DNA of 64,000 nt from Magnetococcales bacterium (GTDB lineage: Bacteria > Pseudomonadota > Magnetococcia > Magnetococcales > Magnetaquicoccaceae). Positions 3,459-62,214 of this stretch are shown here, one piece after another. The position numbers and the translations under genes are program-made. The stretch lies in the NCBI GenBank assembly GCA_015231755.1, contig JADGAZ010000009.1, positions 62,001 to 126,000 of the forward strand, written 5' to 3'. The notes beneath the pieces were generated by a model. It did not search any database. It was not told where the DNA came from and saw nothing but the letters and a program-made list of their open reading frames with translations. The first letter of the stretch is position 1; the number at the start of each line of letters is the position of its first letter.

Positions 3459-5272
3459 GGATTGGCCTCCGGACGGGTCTGTCCGTGTCTTTGATATTGA
3501 TAGAGAAATTTTCTTCTCAGTAGTCCGCCCGGATCGTCCGGGATGCGGCGCAGCCACTGCTCTTCCGCCTGCCGGTTTTCCTCTTCCGCCTCCTGACGCG
3601 CTGCATCCGGGTGATCGGTTTTGGGATCGGCGGCGGGGTCGGGTTTGGGCGTGGCGGATTGTTCTTTATCTTTCGATAATGATTGATCCGCCTCCCTGGA
3701 AGCGGCGGAGGCGTCGGGCTTCTCCGGATTGGGGGAGTCCGGAGAGGATTGGGAGTCGGATTTGGGATCTTTGGGATCCGGCTTCCCGGATTGGTCGGGA
3801 GAAGAGGAGGCGTTTTGCTGGTCCTTCTCTTTGTCCTTCTCTTTGTCCTTCTCTTTGTCCTTCTCTTGGTCTTTTTGATCCTCGGGTTTGGTGGCGGGTG
3901 GGGGGTTGGGGAGGTTTTTTTGCACCAGTTCTCGGTTGTGGCGGGCGTCGGCGTGCTGGGGATCCCGTTTCAAAGCCTCGTCGTAGGCCTGGAGGGATTC
4001 TTCCAGGCGGTTGAGTCGGGCCAGGGCGTTGCCTTTGTTGTACCAGGAGTCGGCGTTGTTCAAAGTTTCCAGGGCGGCGAGGGACTCTTCGTAGCGTCTG
4101 GCTCGATACAGGGCCGCCGCTTTCCAGGCCGGATCGGTGAACAGGGCCGCCGCCGAGTGGGGATCGTTGGCGGTCCACTTTTCGGCGGCTTTTTGATCCG
4201 GGCGTTGCCACGCTCCATCCCAATCCAGAGCGTGGGCCGGGGGGGTGAGCAGAAAGGGCAGCCACCAGAAGATGAGTACTCCCCGCCGGAATCCCAATGC
4301 CGCCAACGGCAGGATCAACACCAGCAGCCAGGGGCCTTCTTCGTGCCACAGGTCGGCGGTGAGGGTGGTTTGTCGGGTGTTGTCGTCGAACCGGTCGGAG
4401 GGACGTTCGGCGAGCAGCAGATCCAGGTCGGCATCATCCGTCACCAGACGGGAGAATGGGCCGTCTCCCGCTTTGGCCAGTGCCCGCAACGGGGCTTCGT
4501 CGAGCCGGGGCACGACGATGGCTCCCCGACCGTCTTGCAGCAATCCCCCTTTGGGCAGCGGGATCGGTGCCCCTTCCGGGGTACCCACCGCCAGTACCGC
4601 CAGTCGGTGTCCCTGTTGATTAAAGTGTCGCGCCGCGTCCAGGGTGGCGGGGGGCAGTTCTCCGTCGGTGATCAGCAGGGCTTCCCCCCGGGTGTGTCCC
4701 GCCTGGGCCAGCATCCGTTCCGCCAGGGCGATGCCCAGATCCGGACGGCTCCCCTGGGCGGGCATGATGTCGCTGCTCAGGGCCTGAAGATGGGCTTGAA
4801 TGGTCTCCCCATCCGACGTGAGGGGCGTGACCGGAAACGCCGCGCCGGCGAAGGCGATCAGGGCGGTGCTGCCTTCCCGGCGGCGTTTGAGCAGGTCGGC
4901 AATTTTCAGTCGGGCCCGTTCCAGACGGCTGGGCTTGAGGTCCGTGGCGTCCATGGAGCGGGAGAGATCCAGGATGATCACCAGGGCGGTCTGTTTCTGA
5001 TAGACCGGTTGGGGAAGCTTCTGCCACGCCGGACCCGCCAGGGCCAGGATGGCGAGGGCGGCGGTCAGGGTGACCAGGAGCGGGGCGTGACGGCTGGTGG
5101 TGGCGCCTTCCCGGGTGGGCTGGCGCAGCAGACGGGGCAGCAGATGGGGATCGCACACCCGTTGCCAGTCGCTGCGGGCTGAACCGGAGCGTCGCAGCAG
5201 CCACCAGAGGGGAACCAGCAGCGGCAGGGTGGCGAGCCACCCGGGGCGCAGCCAGTGGAAGGTTTCGATCAT
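3452..5272 (-). CDS. BatB-BatC fusion: VWA membrane protein with C-terminal TPR domain
   Basis: 606-residue fusion of two Bat proteins usually encoded separately. Residues about 1-70 hold two membrane helices; the VWA domain follows with a MIDAS motif (DLSRSMDATD) and LITDGELPPA; a further membrane segment lies near residue 315 (WLLVLILPLAALGF). After ALDWDGAWQRPDQ comes a TPR region (YRARRYEESLAALETL, WYNKGNALARLNRLEESLQAYDEALKRDP), then a very charged low-complexity tail containing a KDKE repeat and ending in LRRIPDDPGGLLRRKF, the typical BatC/YfbK-type end. The ATG at 5272 overlaps the batA stop as ATGA. The frame continues upstream of 5272 to 6253 but that part is an antiphase shadow of batA. 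Confidence 0.87.
   Translation of the reverse strand: MIETFHWLRPGWLATLPLLVPLWWLLRRSGSARSDWQRVCDPHLLPRLLRQPTREGATTSRHAPLLVTLTAALAILALAGPAWQKLPQPVYQKQTALVIILDLSRSMDATDLKPSRLERARLKIADLLKRRREGSTALIAFAGAAFPVTPLTSDGETIQAHLQALSSDIMPAQGSRPDLGIALAERMLAQAGHTRGEALLITDGELPPATLDAARHFNQQGHRLAVLAVGTPEGAPIPLPKGGLLQDGRGAIVVPRLDEAPLRALAKAGDGPFSRLVTDDADLDLLLAERPSDRFDDNTRQTTLTADLWHEEGPWLLVLILPLAALGFRRGVLIFWWLPFLLTPPAHALDWDGAWQRPDQKAAEKWTANDPHSAAALFTDPAWKAAALYRARRYEESLAALETLNNADSWYNKGNALARLNRLEESLQAYDEALKRDPQHADARHNRELVQKNLPNPPPATKPEDQKDQEKDKEKDKEKDKEKDQQNASSSPDQSGKPDPKDPKSDSQSSPDSPNPEKPDASAASREADQSLSKDKEQSATPKPDPAADPKTDHPDAARQEAEEENRQAEEQWLRRIPDDPGGLLRRKFLYQYQRHGQTRPEANPW
3821..3868. repeat. 12-bp tandem repeat, four copies, inside batB-batC
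   Basis: Plus-strand unit GTCCTTCTCTTT is repeated four times in a row (the fourth copy ends in G). On the coding strand it gives the repeated tetrapeptide KDKE in the charged tail after the TPR domain. Such a repeat could vary in copy number by slippage without breaking the frame. Confidence 0.9.
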
Positions 5273-17018: not shown

Positions 17019-18383
17019 ATGTCCAGCCCGAGTCTGAATCCCGGTCCGAATCCCGGTCCGAATCCCGGTCCGAATCCTGGTCCGAATCCTGATCCGAATC
17101 CCGTTTTGCAGCCAGCGCCGGAATCGGGGCTGTCCCGGCGGCAACTGCTGGGTGCGGCCGGCGTGCTGGGTGCCGGAGCCTTGTTGCGCGGCGCCCCGTT
17201 TGTCCATGCCTCCGAGCCTCCGGTGTTGCGGGTGCTGGGTACCCACGTCACCCTCCGGGAGGCGATCCGCAAAAAGGCCGAAGAGGATCTGGGATTTTCC
17301 ATCCGTTTTGAGCCGGGGGGGGATGCCCTGGTCCAGCAGAAGGCTTCCGCCCGTCCCCAGGACTTTGATCTGTACGAACAGTGGAGCAACAGCATTCACA
17401 TTCTGTGGCGTGCCGGTTCCATCCAGCCCATCGAAATCGAACGTCTGCATCGTTGGGACGAAGTCAACAATCTCACCAAAATCGGTCGTCTGACCCCGGA
17501 AGCCCGTATTGGACTGGGTGATGCGCCCCATACGCTGCTTTATGTCCAGCCAAATGGCAGGCTGGGGTCCACGCCGGGCAAGGGGATCAGTTTTTTGCCT
17601 TATGTCCACAATGTGGACTCCTTTGGCTACGACAGCCGCGTCATTCCCAAGGGGATCGCCTACGAAACCGAAAGCTGGGGATGGCTGCTGGATGACCAGT
17701 GGCATGGCAAGGTGGCGGTGATCAATGAACCGACCATCGGCATTTTCGATCTGGCCCTGGCCGCCGAGTCGAAGGGGCTGATGCGGTTCCGGGATATGGG
17801 CAACATGACCGAAGACGAGGTGGATCAACTGTTTGAATTGTTGATCGGCCTGAAACGGCGGGGACACTTCAGCGGTTTCTGGACCTCGGTGCCGGAGTCC
17901 GCCAGCATGCTGGCCACGGGTCGGGCCGTGGTGGCGAGCATGTTTTCCCCGGCGGTGGCCGACCTCAACGAACAGGGGATTCCCGCTGTCTATGCCGCGC
18001 CCAAGGAGGGATATCGGGCCTGGCATGGGGTGATGTGCCTGTCGTCTCGCACCGGGGGACAGCGCAAGGAGATGGCTTATGACTTCATGAACTGGTGGCT
18101 CTCCGGCTGGCCGGGGGCTTTTGTTGCCCGTCAGGGTTATTACATCTCCAATCCGGAGCGCTCCCGTCCCTTCATGAGTCCGGCGGAGTGGGACTACTGG
18201 TATGAAGGCAAACCGGCCCGGGAGGATCTCACGGGACCGGAAGGCCGCATCTCCGTGCGTCGGGGCATGGTGCGCAACGGCGGCTCGTATTGGCAACGCT
18301 TCGCCAATGTGGCGGTTTGGAACACGGTCATGGATACCTATGAGTATTCCTTGCCCCGTTGGCACGAATTTCTGCTCTCCTGA
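17019..18383 (+). CDS. Tat-exported extracellular solute-binding protein with N-terminal PNPG repeat
   Basis: 454-residue periplasmic binding protein resembling the polyamine/iron class (PotD-like). After an unusual 39-residue N-terminal stretch of PNPG repeats comes a twin-arginine signal (Arg40-Arg41 in LSRRQLLGAAG, hydrophobic core to LLRGAP, cleavage near VHA). The mature part includes LRVLGTHVTLREAI, IQPIEIERL and DSFGYDSRVIPKGI. GGAGG sits upstream of ATG 17019, so the repeat is probably translated. No ABC permease or ATPase gene is adjacent; the next gene is a membrane sensor kinase 19 bases on, which suggests the protein presents a ligand to that kinase (as in TorT/TorS-type systems) instead of feeding a transporter. 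That role is inferred. Confidence 0.85.
   Translation: MSSPSLNPGPNPGPNPGPNPGPNPDPNPVLQPAPESGLSRRQLLGAAGVLGAGALLRGAPFVHASEPPVLRVLGTHVTLREAIRKKAEEDLGFSIRFEPGGDALVQQKASARPQDFDLYEQWSNSIHILWRAGSIQPIEIERLHRWDEVNNLTKIGRLTPEARIGLGDAPHTLLYVQPNGRLGSTPGKGISFLPYVHNVDSFGYDSRVIPKGIAYETESWGWLLDDQWHGKVAVINEPTIGIFDLALAAESKGLMRFRDMGNMTEDEVDQLFELLIGLKRRGHFSGFWTSVPESASMLATGRAVVASMFSPAVADLNEQGIPAVYAAPKEGYRAWHGVMCLSSRTGGQRKEMAYDFMNWWLSGWPGAFVARQGYYISNPERSRPFMSPAEWDYWYEGKPAREDLTGPEGRISVRRGMVRNGGSYWQRFANVAVWNTVMDTYEYSLPRWHEFLLS
17036..17103. repeat. 12-bp tandem repeat in the 5' end of the binding-protein gene
   Basis: Unit GAATCCCGGTCC (last copies with CCTGGT and CCTGAT) repeats over about 5.7 copies and encodes the PNPG repeats ahead of the twin-arginine motif. 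In-frame copy change would only alter the length of the leader. Confidence 0.9.
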
Positions 18384-57337: not shown

Positions 57338-57454
57338 GGCGTTTTTTGACTCCCGGAAGGTGTGAAAGGGTGAAAATGTCTATCTGACAGGATATACCGG
57401 GGGTTGGGGACAAGTCATCCGGAAATCGGCCCGTCTAAAGAGGGGATCACAGGC

Positions 57455-60400
57455 ATGCGTTTTTTTGCGGATTTGCACATTCATTCCAAGTATTCGCGGG
57501 CCACGAGTCGGGATTGTGATCTGGAGCATTTGGCGTTGTGGGCGCGGCGCAAGGGCATTGCGGTTCTGGGCAGCGGGGATTGCACCCATCCCGCCTGGAT
57601 TGCAGCTCTCGCCGAGCAGACCGTAGAAGCCGAACCGGGATTGCGTCGCCTGAAACCCGAGCTGGAACGGCAGGTGTCCGAGGGCTTGGGGGTGCCGGGG
57701 ATGGCGCCGGGAGCCGGAGAGCCGGTGCGTTTCATGCTGACCGTCGAGATTTCGACCATCTACAAAAAAGGGGATTGCACCCGCAAGGTTCACCATGTGA
57801 TCGGTGTTCCCTCCCTGGATGCCGCCCGGCGGCTGATTGCGCGTCTGGGGCGCATCGGCAATCTCAATGCGGATGGCCGACCGATTCTGGGACTGGATTC
57901 CCGCGATCTGCTGGAGATCACCCTGGAAGCCGATCCGGACGCCTTTTTGATTCCGGCCCACATCTGGACGCCCTGGTTTTCGGCGTTGGGTTCCAAGTCG
58001 GGTTTCGATTCCATCGAGGCGTGTTACGGGGATCTGTCGGAGCATATTTTCGCGGTGGAGACCGGGCTTTCCTCGGATCCCCCCATGAACTGGCGGGTGG
58101 GGCGGTTGGACCGTTATCGACTGGTTTCCAACTCCGACGCCCACTCTCCCGCCAAGGTGGCCCGGGAGGCGACGGTGTTCACCTCGGCCATGGACTATTT
58201 CGCCATGGTGGGCGCTTTGAAAACCGGCGAGGGATATGGGGGAACCGTGGAATTTTTTCCCGAGGAGGGAAAATACCATCTGGATGGACATCGGGCCTGT
58301 CAGGTGTGTCTGGACCCGGTGGAGACCCGGCGTTTGTCCGGAATCTGCCCGGTGTGCGGCAAGGGGTTGACCGTGGGGGTGTTGAACCGGGTCGAGGAGT
58401 TGGCCGACCGTCCCGAGGGGATCGCCGCTCCCAAGGCGGCGCCGTTTTGGTCCTTGATCCCTTTGCCCGAGATCATCGGCGAGGTGGAAGGTGTCGGGCC
58501 TGCCTCGGGGCGGGTGACCCGCAGTTATGACGAGATGTTGCGGCGTCTGGGGCCTGAGCTGTTCATTCTGGAATCGGTCCCGTTGGAGGAGATCCAGCGT
58601 CATATGTCGTGGCGCATGGCGGAGGCGATTCAGCGGGTGCGGGCCGGGGAGGTGATCCGTTCCGGCGGGTATGACGGGGAGTTCGGAGTGATCCGTGTGT
58701 TCGGGGCCAAGGCGGCCAAGCCCAAACAGGAGATTGGCGCGTTGTTCGCCCCCGGCAGCGTGGAGGAGAGAAGCGTGACCAGGCCCGCGCCGGCGGGGCG
58801 CAAGAAAATTGCGGACGCGGTGTTGCCGGCACAGGCCGGGATTCCGGAGCCGGAGGAGCGGGTGGCGCCGTCGGTGGACGGCCTGAAACCGGAGGAGGGG
58901 GAAGGGGCGTCGGTGGATGGGCTGGATCCCGAACAGGCGTTGGCCGCGGCCTATGGTCACGGTCCATTGTTGATTCTCGCCGGTCCGGGCACGGGCAAGA
59001 CCCGCACCTTGACCTATCGTCTGGCCCGACTGGTGCGGGATGGGGCTGAACCGGAGGCGAGTCTGGCGGTCACCTTTACCCGGCGCGCCGCCGAGGAGAT
59101 GCGGGAACGGTTGGCGGTGTTGCTGGGAGATCTGGCGCGGCGTATTCCGGTGATGACTTTTCACGCGTTGGGGTGGTCGATCTTGCGTCAGTATGGGACG
59201 CGCTTTGGTTATCCGCCCCATGTGGCCATCGCCGGAGAGGTGGAGGCGGTGCGGAGGCTTCAGGAGGATCTTGGAATCTCCCGGAGCGAGGCGGGCAAGG
59301 TGTTGGATGGTTTCAGCCGTTTGCGGCGCGGCGCCGGGTCCGCGACGCCGGAAGAGGAAGCTTCCCAAACCCTGTCGTTGGCTTTTCATCGCGAGGGAAT
59401 GCGTACGCGGGGGCTGGTGGAACTGGAGGATCTGGTGGCCCTGCCCGTGGCCTGGATGAACGCCGTTCCCGAGTTGGCGGAAGAACTGCGCGTCCGTTAT
59501 CGCCGTCTGTTCGTGGACGAATTCCAGGACATCGACGCCACCCAGTACGCCTTGTTGCGCCATCTGATGCCGGCGGATGGGGATGTGTGCGTGATCGGGG
59601 ATCCGGATCAGTCCATCTACGGTTTCCGTGGTGGGGATCCCCGGTTTTTCGCGGCCATGGCGCGGGATTTTCCCGCCATCCGCACGGTGCGTTTGACCCG
59701 CAACTATCGATCTGGCCGGGCCATCGTGCAGGGGGCGTTGGGGGTGATGGAGCGGGCGGTGGAGCGTCGCGAGCGGGCGTTGACCCCGATCCTGGAGGAT
59801 GCGCGGCGCATTGTGGTGCATACTTCCGCCAGCGACCACGCGGAGGCGGAGTTTGTGGTCCGCACCCTGGAAGCGATGATGGGGGGACATGGTTTTCACG
59901 CCATGGACAGTGGCCAGGCGGATGGACACGCCGCCGGGGAGTATGCGTTTTCTGATTTCGCGGTGCTGTATCGTTCCGACGCCCTCTCCTTGCCAGTGTG
60001 TCAGGCGTTGGAGCGGGCGGGGATTCCCTATCAGAAGCGTTCCCACAACCGTTTGCGGGATCATGGGGGGGTCAAGGTGTTGGTGGAGACCATGGAGCGG
60101 GTTGCCGGCGCCGGATCGGTGGGCGAACGGCTGAAACAGGCCGCCGCCCTGGCAGGGCCGGATCCGGAGGTGAGCGTGGCTTTGGAGTGGCTGGCCCCTC
60201 TGGCCGAACGGCATGGAGAGGATGAGGCGGGATTTTTGTCCGTTCTGGCGTTGGGGGCCGAGGTGGATTTGTTGGATCCTCGGGCGCAACGGGTCTCTTT
60301 GCTGACGCTGCACGGCTCCAAGGGATTGGAATATCGGGTGGTTTTTGTCATCGGCTGCGAGGAGGGCATGCTTCCCTGGCGGTTTGGCGACGCCGAAGTC

Positions 60401-60640
60401 AGAGAAGAGGAGACCGAAGAGGAGCGTCGGCTATTGTTCGTGGCCATGACCCGTGCCCGTGAGACTTTGTTTTTGAGTTGGGCCAAGAAACGTCTTTGGC
60501 GTGGCGTCGTGCGTTCCCTGGAGATTTCATCGTTTCTGCAAGGCATTCGCGAGGAGTGGCTGGAGTATCGCACGACACGGGCCGCCGTCCCCAAAAAAAG
60601 CACGCCGGGGGGCAAACAGTTGACGCTGCTTTGGGACTGA
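57455..60640 (+). CDS. Endonuclease Q-like PHP domain, zinc ribbon and UvrD-type helicase fusion
   Basis: 1061 residues in one frame. Residues 1-400 match the EndoQ/TIGR00375 type: metal-binding FADLHIHSKYSRATSRDCDLE (His8, His10), GSGDCTHPAW, DAFLIPAHIWTPWFS and NSDAHSPAKV, followed by a four-Cys zinc ribbon (Cys282, Cys285, Cys298, Cys301). EndoQ cuts DNA 5' of deaminated bases. After a linker comes a full SF1A helicase: Walker A (AGPGTGKT, Lys515), VTFTRRAAEEMRERL, motif II Asp688-Glu689 (VDEFQDID), GDPDQSIYGFRGG, LTLHGSKGLEY and FVAMTRARETL. A lesion-cutting nuclease joined to its own unwinding motor is implied. ATG 57455 follows GAGGGG. Confidence 0.9.
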   Translation: MRFFADLHIHSKYSRATSRDCDLEHLALWARRKGIAVLGSGDCTHPAWIAALAEQTVEAEPGLRRLKPELERQVSEGLGVPGMAPGAGEPVRFMLTVEISTIYKKGDCTRKVHHVIGVPSLDAARRLIARLGRIGNLNADGRPILGLDSRDLLEITLEADPDAFLIPAHIWTPWFSALGSKSGFDSIEACYGDLSEHIFAVETGLSSDPPMNWRVGRLDRYRLVSNSDAHSPAKVAREATVFTSAMDYFAMVGALKTGEGYGGTVEFFPEEGKYHLDGHRACQVCLDPVETRRLSGICPVCGKGLTVGVLNRVEELADRPEGIAAPKAAPFWSLIPLPEIIGEVEGVGPASGRVTRSYDEMLRRLGPELFILESVPLEEIQRHMSWRMAEAIQRVRAGEVIRSGGYDGEFGVIRVFGAKAAKPKQEIGALFAPGSVEERSVTRPAPAGRKKIADAVLPAQAGIPEPEERVAPSVDGLKPEEGEGASVDGLDPEQALAAAYGHGPLLILAGPGTGKTRTLTYRLARLVRDGAEPEASLAVTFTRRAAEEMRERLAVLLGDLARRIPVMTFHALGWSILRQYGTRFGYPPHVAIAGEVEAVRRLQEDLGISRSEAGKVLDGFSRLRRGAGSATPEEEASQTLSLAFHREGMRTRGLVELEDLVALPVAWMNAVPELAEELRVRYRRLFVDEFQDIDATQYALLRHLMPADGDVCVIGDPDQSIYGFRGGDPRFFAAMARDFPAIRTVRLTRNYRSGRAIVQGALGVMERAVERRERALTPILEDARRIVVHTSASDHAEAEFVVRTLEAMMGGHGFHAMDSGQADGHAAGEYAFSDFAVLYRSDALSLPVCQALERAGIPYQKRSHNRLRDHGGVKVLVETMERVAGAGSVGERLKQAAALAGPDPEVSVALEWLAPLAERHGEDEAGFLSVLALGAEVDLLDPRAQRVSLLTLHGSKGLEYRVVFVIGCEEGMLPWRFGDAEVREEETEEERRLLFVAMTRARETLFLSWAKKRLWRGVVRSLEISSFLQGIREEWLEYRTTRAAVPKKSTPGGKQLTLLWD

Positions 60641-60730
60641 CCGATGGCCGGATGAGGCGATTGGAGGGCGCTGTCACCGGCTGCGGGATGATGGGGGGCG
60701 GTTGATCGGAGGCGTGATACTGGAAAAATG

Positions 60731-60779
60731 GTTACAAGAAAGTTACAAAATTGTTACATAATGGTTACGAAACCGTTAT
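60731..60779. repeat. Five GTTAC-type direct repeats with exact 11-bp period
   Basis: GTTAC begins at 60731, 60742, 60753 and 60764, with GTTAT at 60775. The spacers are A/T-rich (AAGAAA, AAAATT, ATAATG, GAAACC). An 11-bp period puts every unit on one face of the helix and is the geometry of binding sites for OmpR/PhoB-type winged-helix regulators (Pho box and related). The bound protein and target gene are unknown; the nearest downstream gene is FKBP, 430 bp away. Confidence 0.75.
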
Positions 60780-60968
60780 GGGAGGATGCCTGTTCATATT
60801 TTTAAGTGGTGGGGCCTGGAACACGATGGGATGGCGATGGATCCATCGATGGATCTGTTGGAATGATTCAGTAACGTCTGCTCATTTTTTGGTTGGATCT
60901 GTTGGGGGGTAAGAATTTCGTTAATGGTATTTGCGTGGGCTTCCTGGCTGGGATGGTGGCATTCGGGT

Positions 60969-60992
60969 TTGCAAGAATCTGCAAAATATGCA
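60969..60992. repeat. Three TGCA-type units spaced 10 and 9 bp
   Basis: TTGCA (60969), CTGCA (60979), ATGCA (60988) followed by A-rich spacers; similar to the clusters at 14154 and 23721 but less regular. Confidence 0.35.
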
Positions 60993-61209
60993 ATATCGTT
61001 GTGTTTTTCAAGAGAGAATTTTTCATTTTCTGCGTTGGATCCCTGGATTTTTCAGATGACTTGTCCTGGGGTTTTTGCTACCTTGAACATGTCGTGAATG
61101 GGGATCTGGTCAATAGGAACGGCCTGCAGGGGGTTTTTCGATGGGGCGCCCATGAATCGGTTCGTATCATGGGTCATTTTCCAAGAAGAATGGTTTATGG
61201 GTGGCAAAA

Positions 61210-61671
61210 ATGGCAGGCGGGTTTGGAAAGATCAGGACCATACTGTTCAATCTGCTGCTCGGTCGCGCACGCGGGGAGCATCATCGCAAGGCGGGTGAGC
61301 GGTTTCTTCAGGCAAACGGGGCGCGTCCCGGCGTGACCACCACCCACACCGGATTGCAGTGGGAGGTGTTGCGGCCGGGTGAAGGGGAGAAACCGGGATT
61401 TTCCAGTCGGGTGGTGGTCCACTATCGGGGCACGCTGGTCAGCGGTGTGGAGTTCGACAGCTCTTACGGGCGTGGAGAACCCACCACCTTCGGGCTGCTG
61501 GATGTCATTTCCGGTTGGCGCGAAGGGTTGCAGTTGATGCCCGAGGGCAGTCAATACCGCTTCGTGATCCCGCCGGATATGGCTTATGGGGGTACCGGCG
61601 CCGGTTTGTTGATTCCCGCGTGGTCCACGTTGATCTTCGAGGTGGAACTGCTCAAGGTTGAATCCCGATAG
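61210..61671 (+). CDS. FKBP-type peptidyl-prolyl isomerase
   Basis: 153 residues. The C-terminal ~110 residues are an FKBP domain: VVVHYRGTLVSGVEFDSSYGRGEPTTFGL, the active-site Trp in VISGWREGLQLMPEG, FVIPPDMAYGGTGAG, and the final strand STLIFEVELLKVE. The first ~40 residues (FGKIRTILFNLLLGRARGEHHRKAGERFL) form a short basic helix as in Mip-like proteins, without a clear signal peptide. ATG 61210 has GGTGG upstream; GTG 61201 is an alternative. Confidence 0.9.
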   Translation: MAGGFGKIRTILFNLLLGRARGEHHRKAGERFLQANGARPGVTTTHTGLQWEVLRPGEGEKPGFSSRVVVHYRGTLVSGVEFDSSYGRGEPTTFGLLDVISGWREGLQLMPEGSQYRFVIPPDMAYGGTGAGLLIPAWSTLIFEVELLKVESR

Positions 61672-61744: not shown

Positions 61745-62032
61745 CTACCAGTTCCACGGCATCCAGGATCCGCCGGGACCACGGTTGTAGTAGGGATAGT
61801 AGCCGCCATAATACGGATAATAGCCGCCACCGTAGGGGGGGTAGCCGCCGTAGGGGGGGTAGTAGCCGTTGTAGGGATAGTAGCCGCCGCCGTAGGGGTA
61901 GCCGCCGGGATAGCCGTAGCCGGGATAGCCGTAATAGGGGTTTCCCCACCAGGCGTTGGCGGTGTCGGGGATGGTCATGGCAGCCGTTCCCAGAATGGCG
62001 GCCAGACCCAGTGCGAGAGCATGTTTTTTCAT
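61745..62032 (-). CDS. Secreted Gly/Tyr/Pro-rich low-complexity protein, sulfur globule protein-like
   Basis: 95 residues. Signal peptide (MKKHALALGLAAILGTAAM, cleavage near ANA) followed by a mature part of about 68 residues made nearly only of Gly, Tyr and Pro (repeats like YPGYGYPGG and YGGYYPYY) with Trp and Asn at the ends. Composition and size resemble the sulfur globule envelope proteins SgpA/SgpB of purple sulfur bacteria; Gly/Tyr-rich surface proteins of other function look alike. GGAGG lies ahead of ATG 62032. It has its own transcription unit, ending at the stem-loop at 61690. Confidence 0.78.
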   Translation of the reverse strand: MKKHALALGLAAILGTAAMTIPDTANAWWGNPYYGYPGYGYPGGYPYGGGYYPYNGYYPPYGGYPPYGGGYYPYYGGYYPYYNRGPGGSWMPWNW

Positions 62033-62214
62033 TCTTGCGGTTCCTCCCATGGTTGATAAAGGTTCATGAATGGGAAATGGCCCGACGCAGGGCCTTCCGG
62101 AGTTTCTCCGGCAACGTAGGATTTCATGCTTGTGATAGCAAAAGCGATCACCGATTTCAACAGAGATTTCAGGGTCTGGGGTGCCATTCAGGGGGGACAG
62201 GGGGGAACAGGGGC

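Follow-up and report, generated by a model that had tools for sequence, protein, structure and literature searches.

A five-unit GTTAC array with an 11-bp period in a Magnetococcales genome, a candidate operator of an OmpR/PhoB-family response regulator

Between the gene for a UvrD-type helicase (57404-60640, plus strand; PF00580, PF13361) and the gene for an FKBP-type peptidyl-prolyl isomerase (61201-61671, plus strand; PF00254, PF01346), a Magnetococcales genome of 3.84 Mb in 44 contigs carries a row of evenly spaced pentamers, which raises the question of whether a regulatory protein binds there and, if so, which protein and with what effect. The row lies at 60731-60779 of the 64,000-nucleotide stretch of DNA that was analysed as a whole (the window) and reads GTTACAAGAAA GTTACAAAATT GTTACATAATG GTTACGAAACC GTTAT. 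GTTAC begins at 60731, 60742, 60753 and 60764 and GTTAT at 60775, in steps of exactly 11 bp; read on the plus strand, the units of this candidate operator are GTTAC four times and GTTAT, and read on the minus strand, ATAAC and GTAAC four times. The five-unit array of exact 11-bp period described in a first-pass annotation of this DNA is therefore confirmed by reading of the sequence and by comparison with shuffled sequence: all three overlapping matches to GTTAY-N6-GTTAY-N6-GTTAY in the 64-kb window fall within the array, and this three-unit pattern had no match in 100 dinucleotide shuffles. A word-free test, which avoids choosing the word afterwards, counted any 5-mer present in four exact copies, with the period free between 7 and 24; it returned 27 such rows in the window, one of which is the GTTAC array, and 0 in each of 15 dinucleotide shuffles. 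The GTTAC array is not a chance product. Of the remaining 26, some are period-12 tandem repeats and the others are coding repeats of a Tyr/Gly-rich ORF (row starts 61800-61864, periods 18 and 21). There are two period-12 tandem repeats in the window, with starts at 3821-3827 and 17036-17061 and spacer identity of 0.71-0.95. On the minus strand, 61745-62050 would encode a small, secreted-looking protein rich in Tyr, Gly and Pro with no Pfam match, and a stretch resembling this ORF also follows the FKBP gene in another genome, G010.

One explanation is that the array is a diverged 11-bp minisatellite. TRF reports a period-11 repeat at 60725-60772 (4.4 copies, 72% matches, score 54), plain 11-bp GTTAC minisatellites occur in two other genomes (G040 and G028), and the number of units differs between this genome (G000) and that of its sister species G006. 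In a minisatellite, however, whole units are alike, spacers included, whereas in the array, despite the 72% match overall, the spacers outside the pentamer are only 39% identical between units and four copies of the 5-mer are identical. With this low identity the spacers are too dissimilar for a fresh minisatellite, and mutation alone would not spare one pentamer, so that an origin with no protein involved appears quite unlikely. The array has instead the architecture of an operator, namely direct repeats of a half-site of 5-7 bp that are one helical turn apart.

Judged from its sequence, the array is a reasonable fit to the OmpR/PhoB family, whose tandem binding the first-pass annotation had recognised in the 11-bp phasing. 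This proposal is strengthened by the architecture, by the 12 Trans_reg_C (PF00486) regulators encoded in the genome, and by genuine-looking 11-bp arrays at phosphate genes of the genus. Several known systems share some of its features. The half-site of ArcA is GTTAA-like and in this unlike the array, and the only TorR/ArcA-like regulator among six that were scanned (L029) has no such array at its own promoter. The ArcA sites of E. coli are alike in being multi-element direct repeats at 11 bp: they have two to five direct-repeat elements with a centre-to-centre distance of 11 bp, and 92 of 158 sites have three to five elements (PMC3798270). The half-site of E. coli OmpR, quoted as GTTACAnnnnGTTACA, shares GTTACA with the array, in contrast to the spacing, which is 10 bp in the quoted consensus and 11 bp in the array (PMC7315122). 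An E. coli-type OmpR box, with GTTACA at 10 bp, is thus not present at this place, where GTTACA is found in three of the five plus-strand units at a spacing of 11. The WalR/VicR site, TGTWAH-N5-TGTWAH, has the 11-bp spacing and a consensus that admits TGTTAC and TGTAAC units (PMC4168254), but it is a two-unit site of a Firmicutes regulator for which no orthologue was identified in this analysis. For CenR of Rhodobacter, TGA-N8-TGA is given (PMC9275681).

Arrays with the period of the window array were found at phosphate genes of the genus. Upstream of the gene for the PiT phosphate transporter, nine genomes of the genus share four units of approximately TTAAY/TTAAY/TTCAT/TTAAY at 11 bp. When four genomes of the genus were searched for four KTMAY units with up to two mismatches, using the backward pattern as a control, 62 matches were obtained at 11 bp, versus 13 for the control; the corresponding counts were 20 and 20 at 10 bp, and 67 and 75 at 12 bp. 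Among the genes downstream of these arrays are those for PiT, DUF47/PhoU-like and PstS-like proteins and a SulP/TauE pair, with the PHO4 and DUF47 targets confirmed by Pfam and the PstS-like and SulP/TauE targets named by reading. A matrix of 74 units was built from 17 hand-picked arrays at phosphate genes (L210-L218, L252-L254, L259, L261, L264, L269 and L201), the sulfate and degenerate arrays being left out. These 17 Pho-type arrays at PiT, PstS/pst and DUF47 genes, nine of which belong to orthologues of one PiT gene and two to orthologues of one PstS gene, have four to six units exactly 11 bp apart. Their units are TT[A/C]A[C/T], position 1 being T in 65 of 74 and G in one of 74, and in 16 of the 17 hand-picked arrays the best TATAAT match starts at exactly +15 nt, counted from the initial base of the final unit. 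Since they adjoin phosphate genes and phoB is located in the same gene region, these arrays may be read as PhoB sites. In this magnetotactic lineage the promoters of phosphate genes seem as a rule to have long arrays, and, with four to six units here and the element counts given above for ArcA, the four to five units of the window array are not exceptional, contrary to the earlier view that they exceed the usual two to three. Strict GT[TC]A[CT] pairs were absent upstream of PstS-like genes (0 among 15 PstS loci), because the genus mostly has TT there. In a sister genus, g2, GTAAC/GTTAC/GTAAC/TTCAC is conserved upstream of a PiT gene in three genomes (L183, L184 and L185, at about 1501), so that G-type units can occur in phosphate promoters of this family; in the genus studied here, no such array was seen before the genes of the third PiT group.

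The window array resembles these Pho boxes, which are recognised by their sequence alone, in its exact 11-bp direct repeats, its number of units within the range of four to six, and its [T/G]T[A/C]A[C/T]-like units. On the minus strand it is an exact match to four KTMAY units, and with a matrix from the nine PiT arrays its minus-strand reading (GTAAC) is the best four- and five-unit site of the 64-kb window, the plus-strand reading scoring badly. This would suit a true PhoB site on the minus strand, with transcription that would run leftward from TATCAC (60719-60714) and overlap the 3' end of the helicase gene in antisense orientation. A unit of the sister species that reads GTCAC on the minus strand, changed where Pho units have A or C, the conservation of TCCAGTATCA, and the G-type units before PiT in the three g2 genomes are consistent with such a site. 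In contrast, four of the five minus-strand units have G at position 1 and the remaining one has A, versus G in one of 74 Pho units. Due to this first base (G or A versus the T of Pho units), the 74-unit matrix gives the minus-strand units low scores of 2.7-4.5, compared with a training minimum of 2.5 and a median of 8.7; the plus-strand units score -2.9 to 1.3. The hexamer at +15 is CTGTTC on the plus strand and GTATCA on the minus strand, neither of which is -10-like. The putative -10-like TATCAC (60714-60719, minus strand) is weak, lies at +16 relative to the last minus-strand unit, and belongs to a stretch conserved in G006. Furthermore, no phosphate gene adjoins the array, whose neighbours are the helicase and FKBP genes, and there is no gene leftward, where a minus-strand ORF at 60399-60677 has no Pfam match. 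The array was therefore rejected as a Pho box of the genus, for both its first base and its -10 spacing fail, and a minus-strand PhoB site is, in our judgement, unlikely.

As unit first base and promoter spacing both speak against PhoB acting via the standard Pho box of the genus, the regulator is probably not PhoB in that mode and may be another of the 12 paralogues. In an NCBIfam scan of six of the 12, one was identified as PhoB, with TIGR02154 above its curated cut-off, and the best models for the others were OmpR for two (L024 and L028) and CpxR, TorR and KdpE for one each, all below their cut-offs. Because E. coli OmpR half-sites are given as GTTACA (PMC7315122), the two OmpR-like paralogues are natural candidates. 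No clear GTTAC or GTAAC array was seen in the 400-bp stretches upstream of the 12 regulator genes. At L203 (4126-8841), GTTACAATTTTGTCAT separates genes for an OmpR-like regulator and a kinase from divergent genes that, by reading, encode an HMA-domain protein and a copper ATPase. This site, in the gap between the copper-gene cluster and the OmpR-like regulator gene (L028), resembles a CusR-type palindrome, not an array, and was set aside.

A plus-strand operator of an OmpR-like regulator might act on the FKBP gene or give rise to a long FKBP leader. The resemblance of the GTTACA units to OmpR half-sites as quoted (PMC7315122), the presence of L024 and L028 and the position of the FKBP gene, which is the next gene on the plus strand, would agree with this. 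However, the FKBP gene begins at 61201, 422 bp from the end of the array, so that the earlier statement that no obvious target gene lies within 400 bp rightward holds, and the gene has a conserved promoter-like block of its own at 61040-61084 (plus strand), about 300 bp from the array and too far for ordinary activation. Within this presumptive promoter, 61040-61069 is 97% identical to G006, and an extended -10, TG(N)TACYTT, at 61076-61084 is kept in all four genomes of a 4-sequence alignment. The flanks of the array have only weak -10-like hexamers on either side; the one just to the right, a possible CATATT/TATTTT at 60796-60803 (plus strand), is weak and off the +15 spacing. A consensus promoter scan of 60600-61300 detected no plus-strand promoter, and a sigma-70 search gave nothing convincing. 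The OmpR spacing of 10 bp rather than 11 in the quoted consensus, the copper genes adjoining L028, which suggest another role for this regulator, and a folding score that points to no leader structure (z 0.51) also argue against control of FKBP from the array, which seems to us improbable. In another genome, G018 (C1:77511-79002), a PiT gene is located just upstream of an FKBP gene, with less than 60 bp between the matches.

It had also been suggested that the array may drive an undescribed small RNA or leader, and our results lend this no backing. Rfam gave no match at the gathering score and one sub-threshold match (E 0.9), the folding of the presumed transcripts is not unusual (rightward z 0.51, leftward z -0.88), and there are no terminator-like sites in 60600-61300. 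An unstructured RNA of no known family could still be made at the array; leftward transcription would cover the 3' end of the helicase gene in antisense.

The genome scan for GTTAC-N6-GTTAC that the first-pass annotation had proposed returned four places in the genome, three of which are within the array. The pattern thus recurs once outside it, in a pair on contig C25 that was discarded since it falls within sequence reading as ftsQ-like coding, and no second array was found: a search for three GTTAY units with at most one mismatch matched only at the array. Without a second GTTAC array in the genome, there is no regulon in support of the operator reading. Three GTTAC units occur in four of 100 genomes, two of which are those with the plain minisatellites, and apart from the genome studied here only the array of G030 resembles the window array in this survey. 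In G030 (L011, about 1490-1527), GTTAC/GTTAC/GTTAC/GTCAC is situated between a STAS-like gene, about 210 bp upstream of it, and a divergent chemoreceptor-like gene, both named by reading. An array of GTCAT/GTTAC/GTTAC in G001 and G002 was dismissed as a coding coincidence, as it overlaps the start of a pal-like gene beside a tolB-like gene (names by reading). Three GTTAY units with at most one mismatch were matched in 26 of 48 genomes and are not enriched, with a total of 56 matches versus 125 for the backward control.

Comparison with relatives, which had likewise been proposed, showed that the array is poorly conserved. The 560-bp intergenic region (60641-61200) was found in five of 41 genomes, including its own, and G006 is the only sister species that aligns across it. 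In G006 the counterpart of the array comprises GTGAC, GTTAC, one broken unit and GTTAT and includes a gap of 10 bp; no 30-bp segment of the intergenic region is less conserved in this comparison than 60740-60769 (identity 0.40). At 18 FKBP loci, one of which (L075) was mis-positioned by the script, four matching units were found only in the genome studied here. Half of what the first-pass annotation had said would speak against its reading is therefore seen, namely the lack of other GTTAC arrays in the genome and the poor conservation. These two observations, together with the absence of a correctly spaced promoter on either strand, would be expected if the array were a genuine binding site that is inert, or a remnant in decay, tolerated as noise. 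E. coli PhoB likewise has many binding sites at which it has no effect, most of them within genes (PMC10294691). In contrast, four perfect units are many for a neutral remnant, since random decay would spoil some of them. We regard an inert site or remnant as a possibility to be taken seriously, somewhat short of an even chance.

The explanation we favour, and consider probable, is a recently formed or expanded multi-unit operator to which a response regulator of the OmpR/PhoB family binds, with a weak, species-specific output or none. We infer binding, regulator and output from what was observed, that is, the array, its non-randomness, the architecture it shares with the phosphate genes and its poor conservation. 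Phosphorylated regulator dimers would bind head to tail, each 11-bp unit being occupied by a single winged-helix domain, and adjacent dimers would cooperate in binding over approximately 55 bp. The array may have arisen or expanded recently, because the sister species has a shorter, decayed form and the array was not found in the other congeners checked. Such a recent origin and poor conservation suggest weak species-specific regulation or no output rather than a dedicated RNA. A more specific version, in which a fast-evolving local operator is bound by an OmpR-like regulator, drives, in this species and possibly in the sister species, a leftward RNA antisense to the helicase gene at its 3' end, and has a threshold set by the number of units, is very unlikely in our view. 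If it were true, sister species would have a natural means of tuning the strength of the response, by gaining and losing 11-bp units. If the array is bound at all, it would be one more multi-unit operator in a magnetotactic lineage, and it shows how sister species may differ by gaining or losing operator sites.

More useful than the GTTAC array itself is the combination of four to six units with a -10 at +15 that was found at PiT, pst and DUF47 genes in several species, as it provides a rule, open to testing, by which the Pho regulon could be mapped in uncultured Magnetococcales. In addition, TTAAC arrays of 11-bp period were observed in pairs, with about 2.5 kb between the two, upstream of TauE-like and SulP-like transporter genes (named by reading) in four genomes, in G000 at C7:26266 and C7:28756 (L242 and L262) and also in G006, G010 and G008. 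It is possible that these pairs represent a sulfate regulon with a Pho-like architecture.
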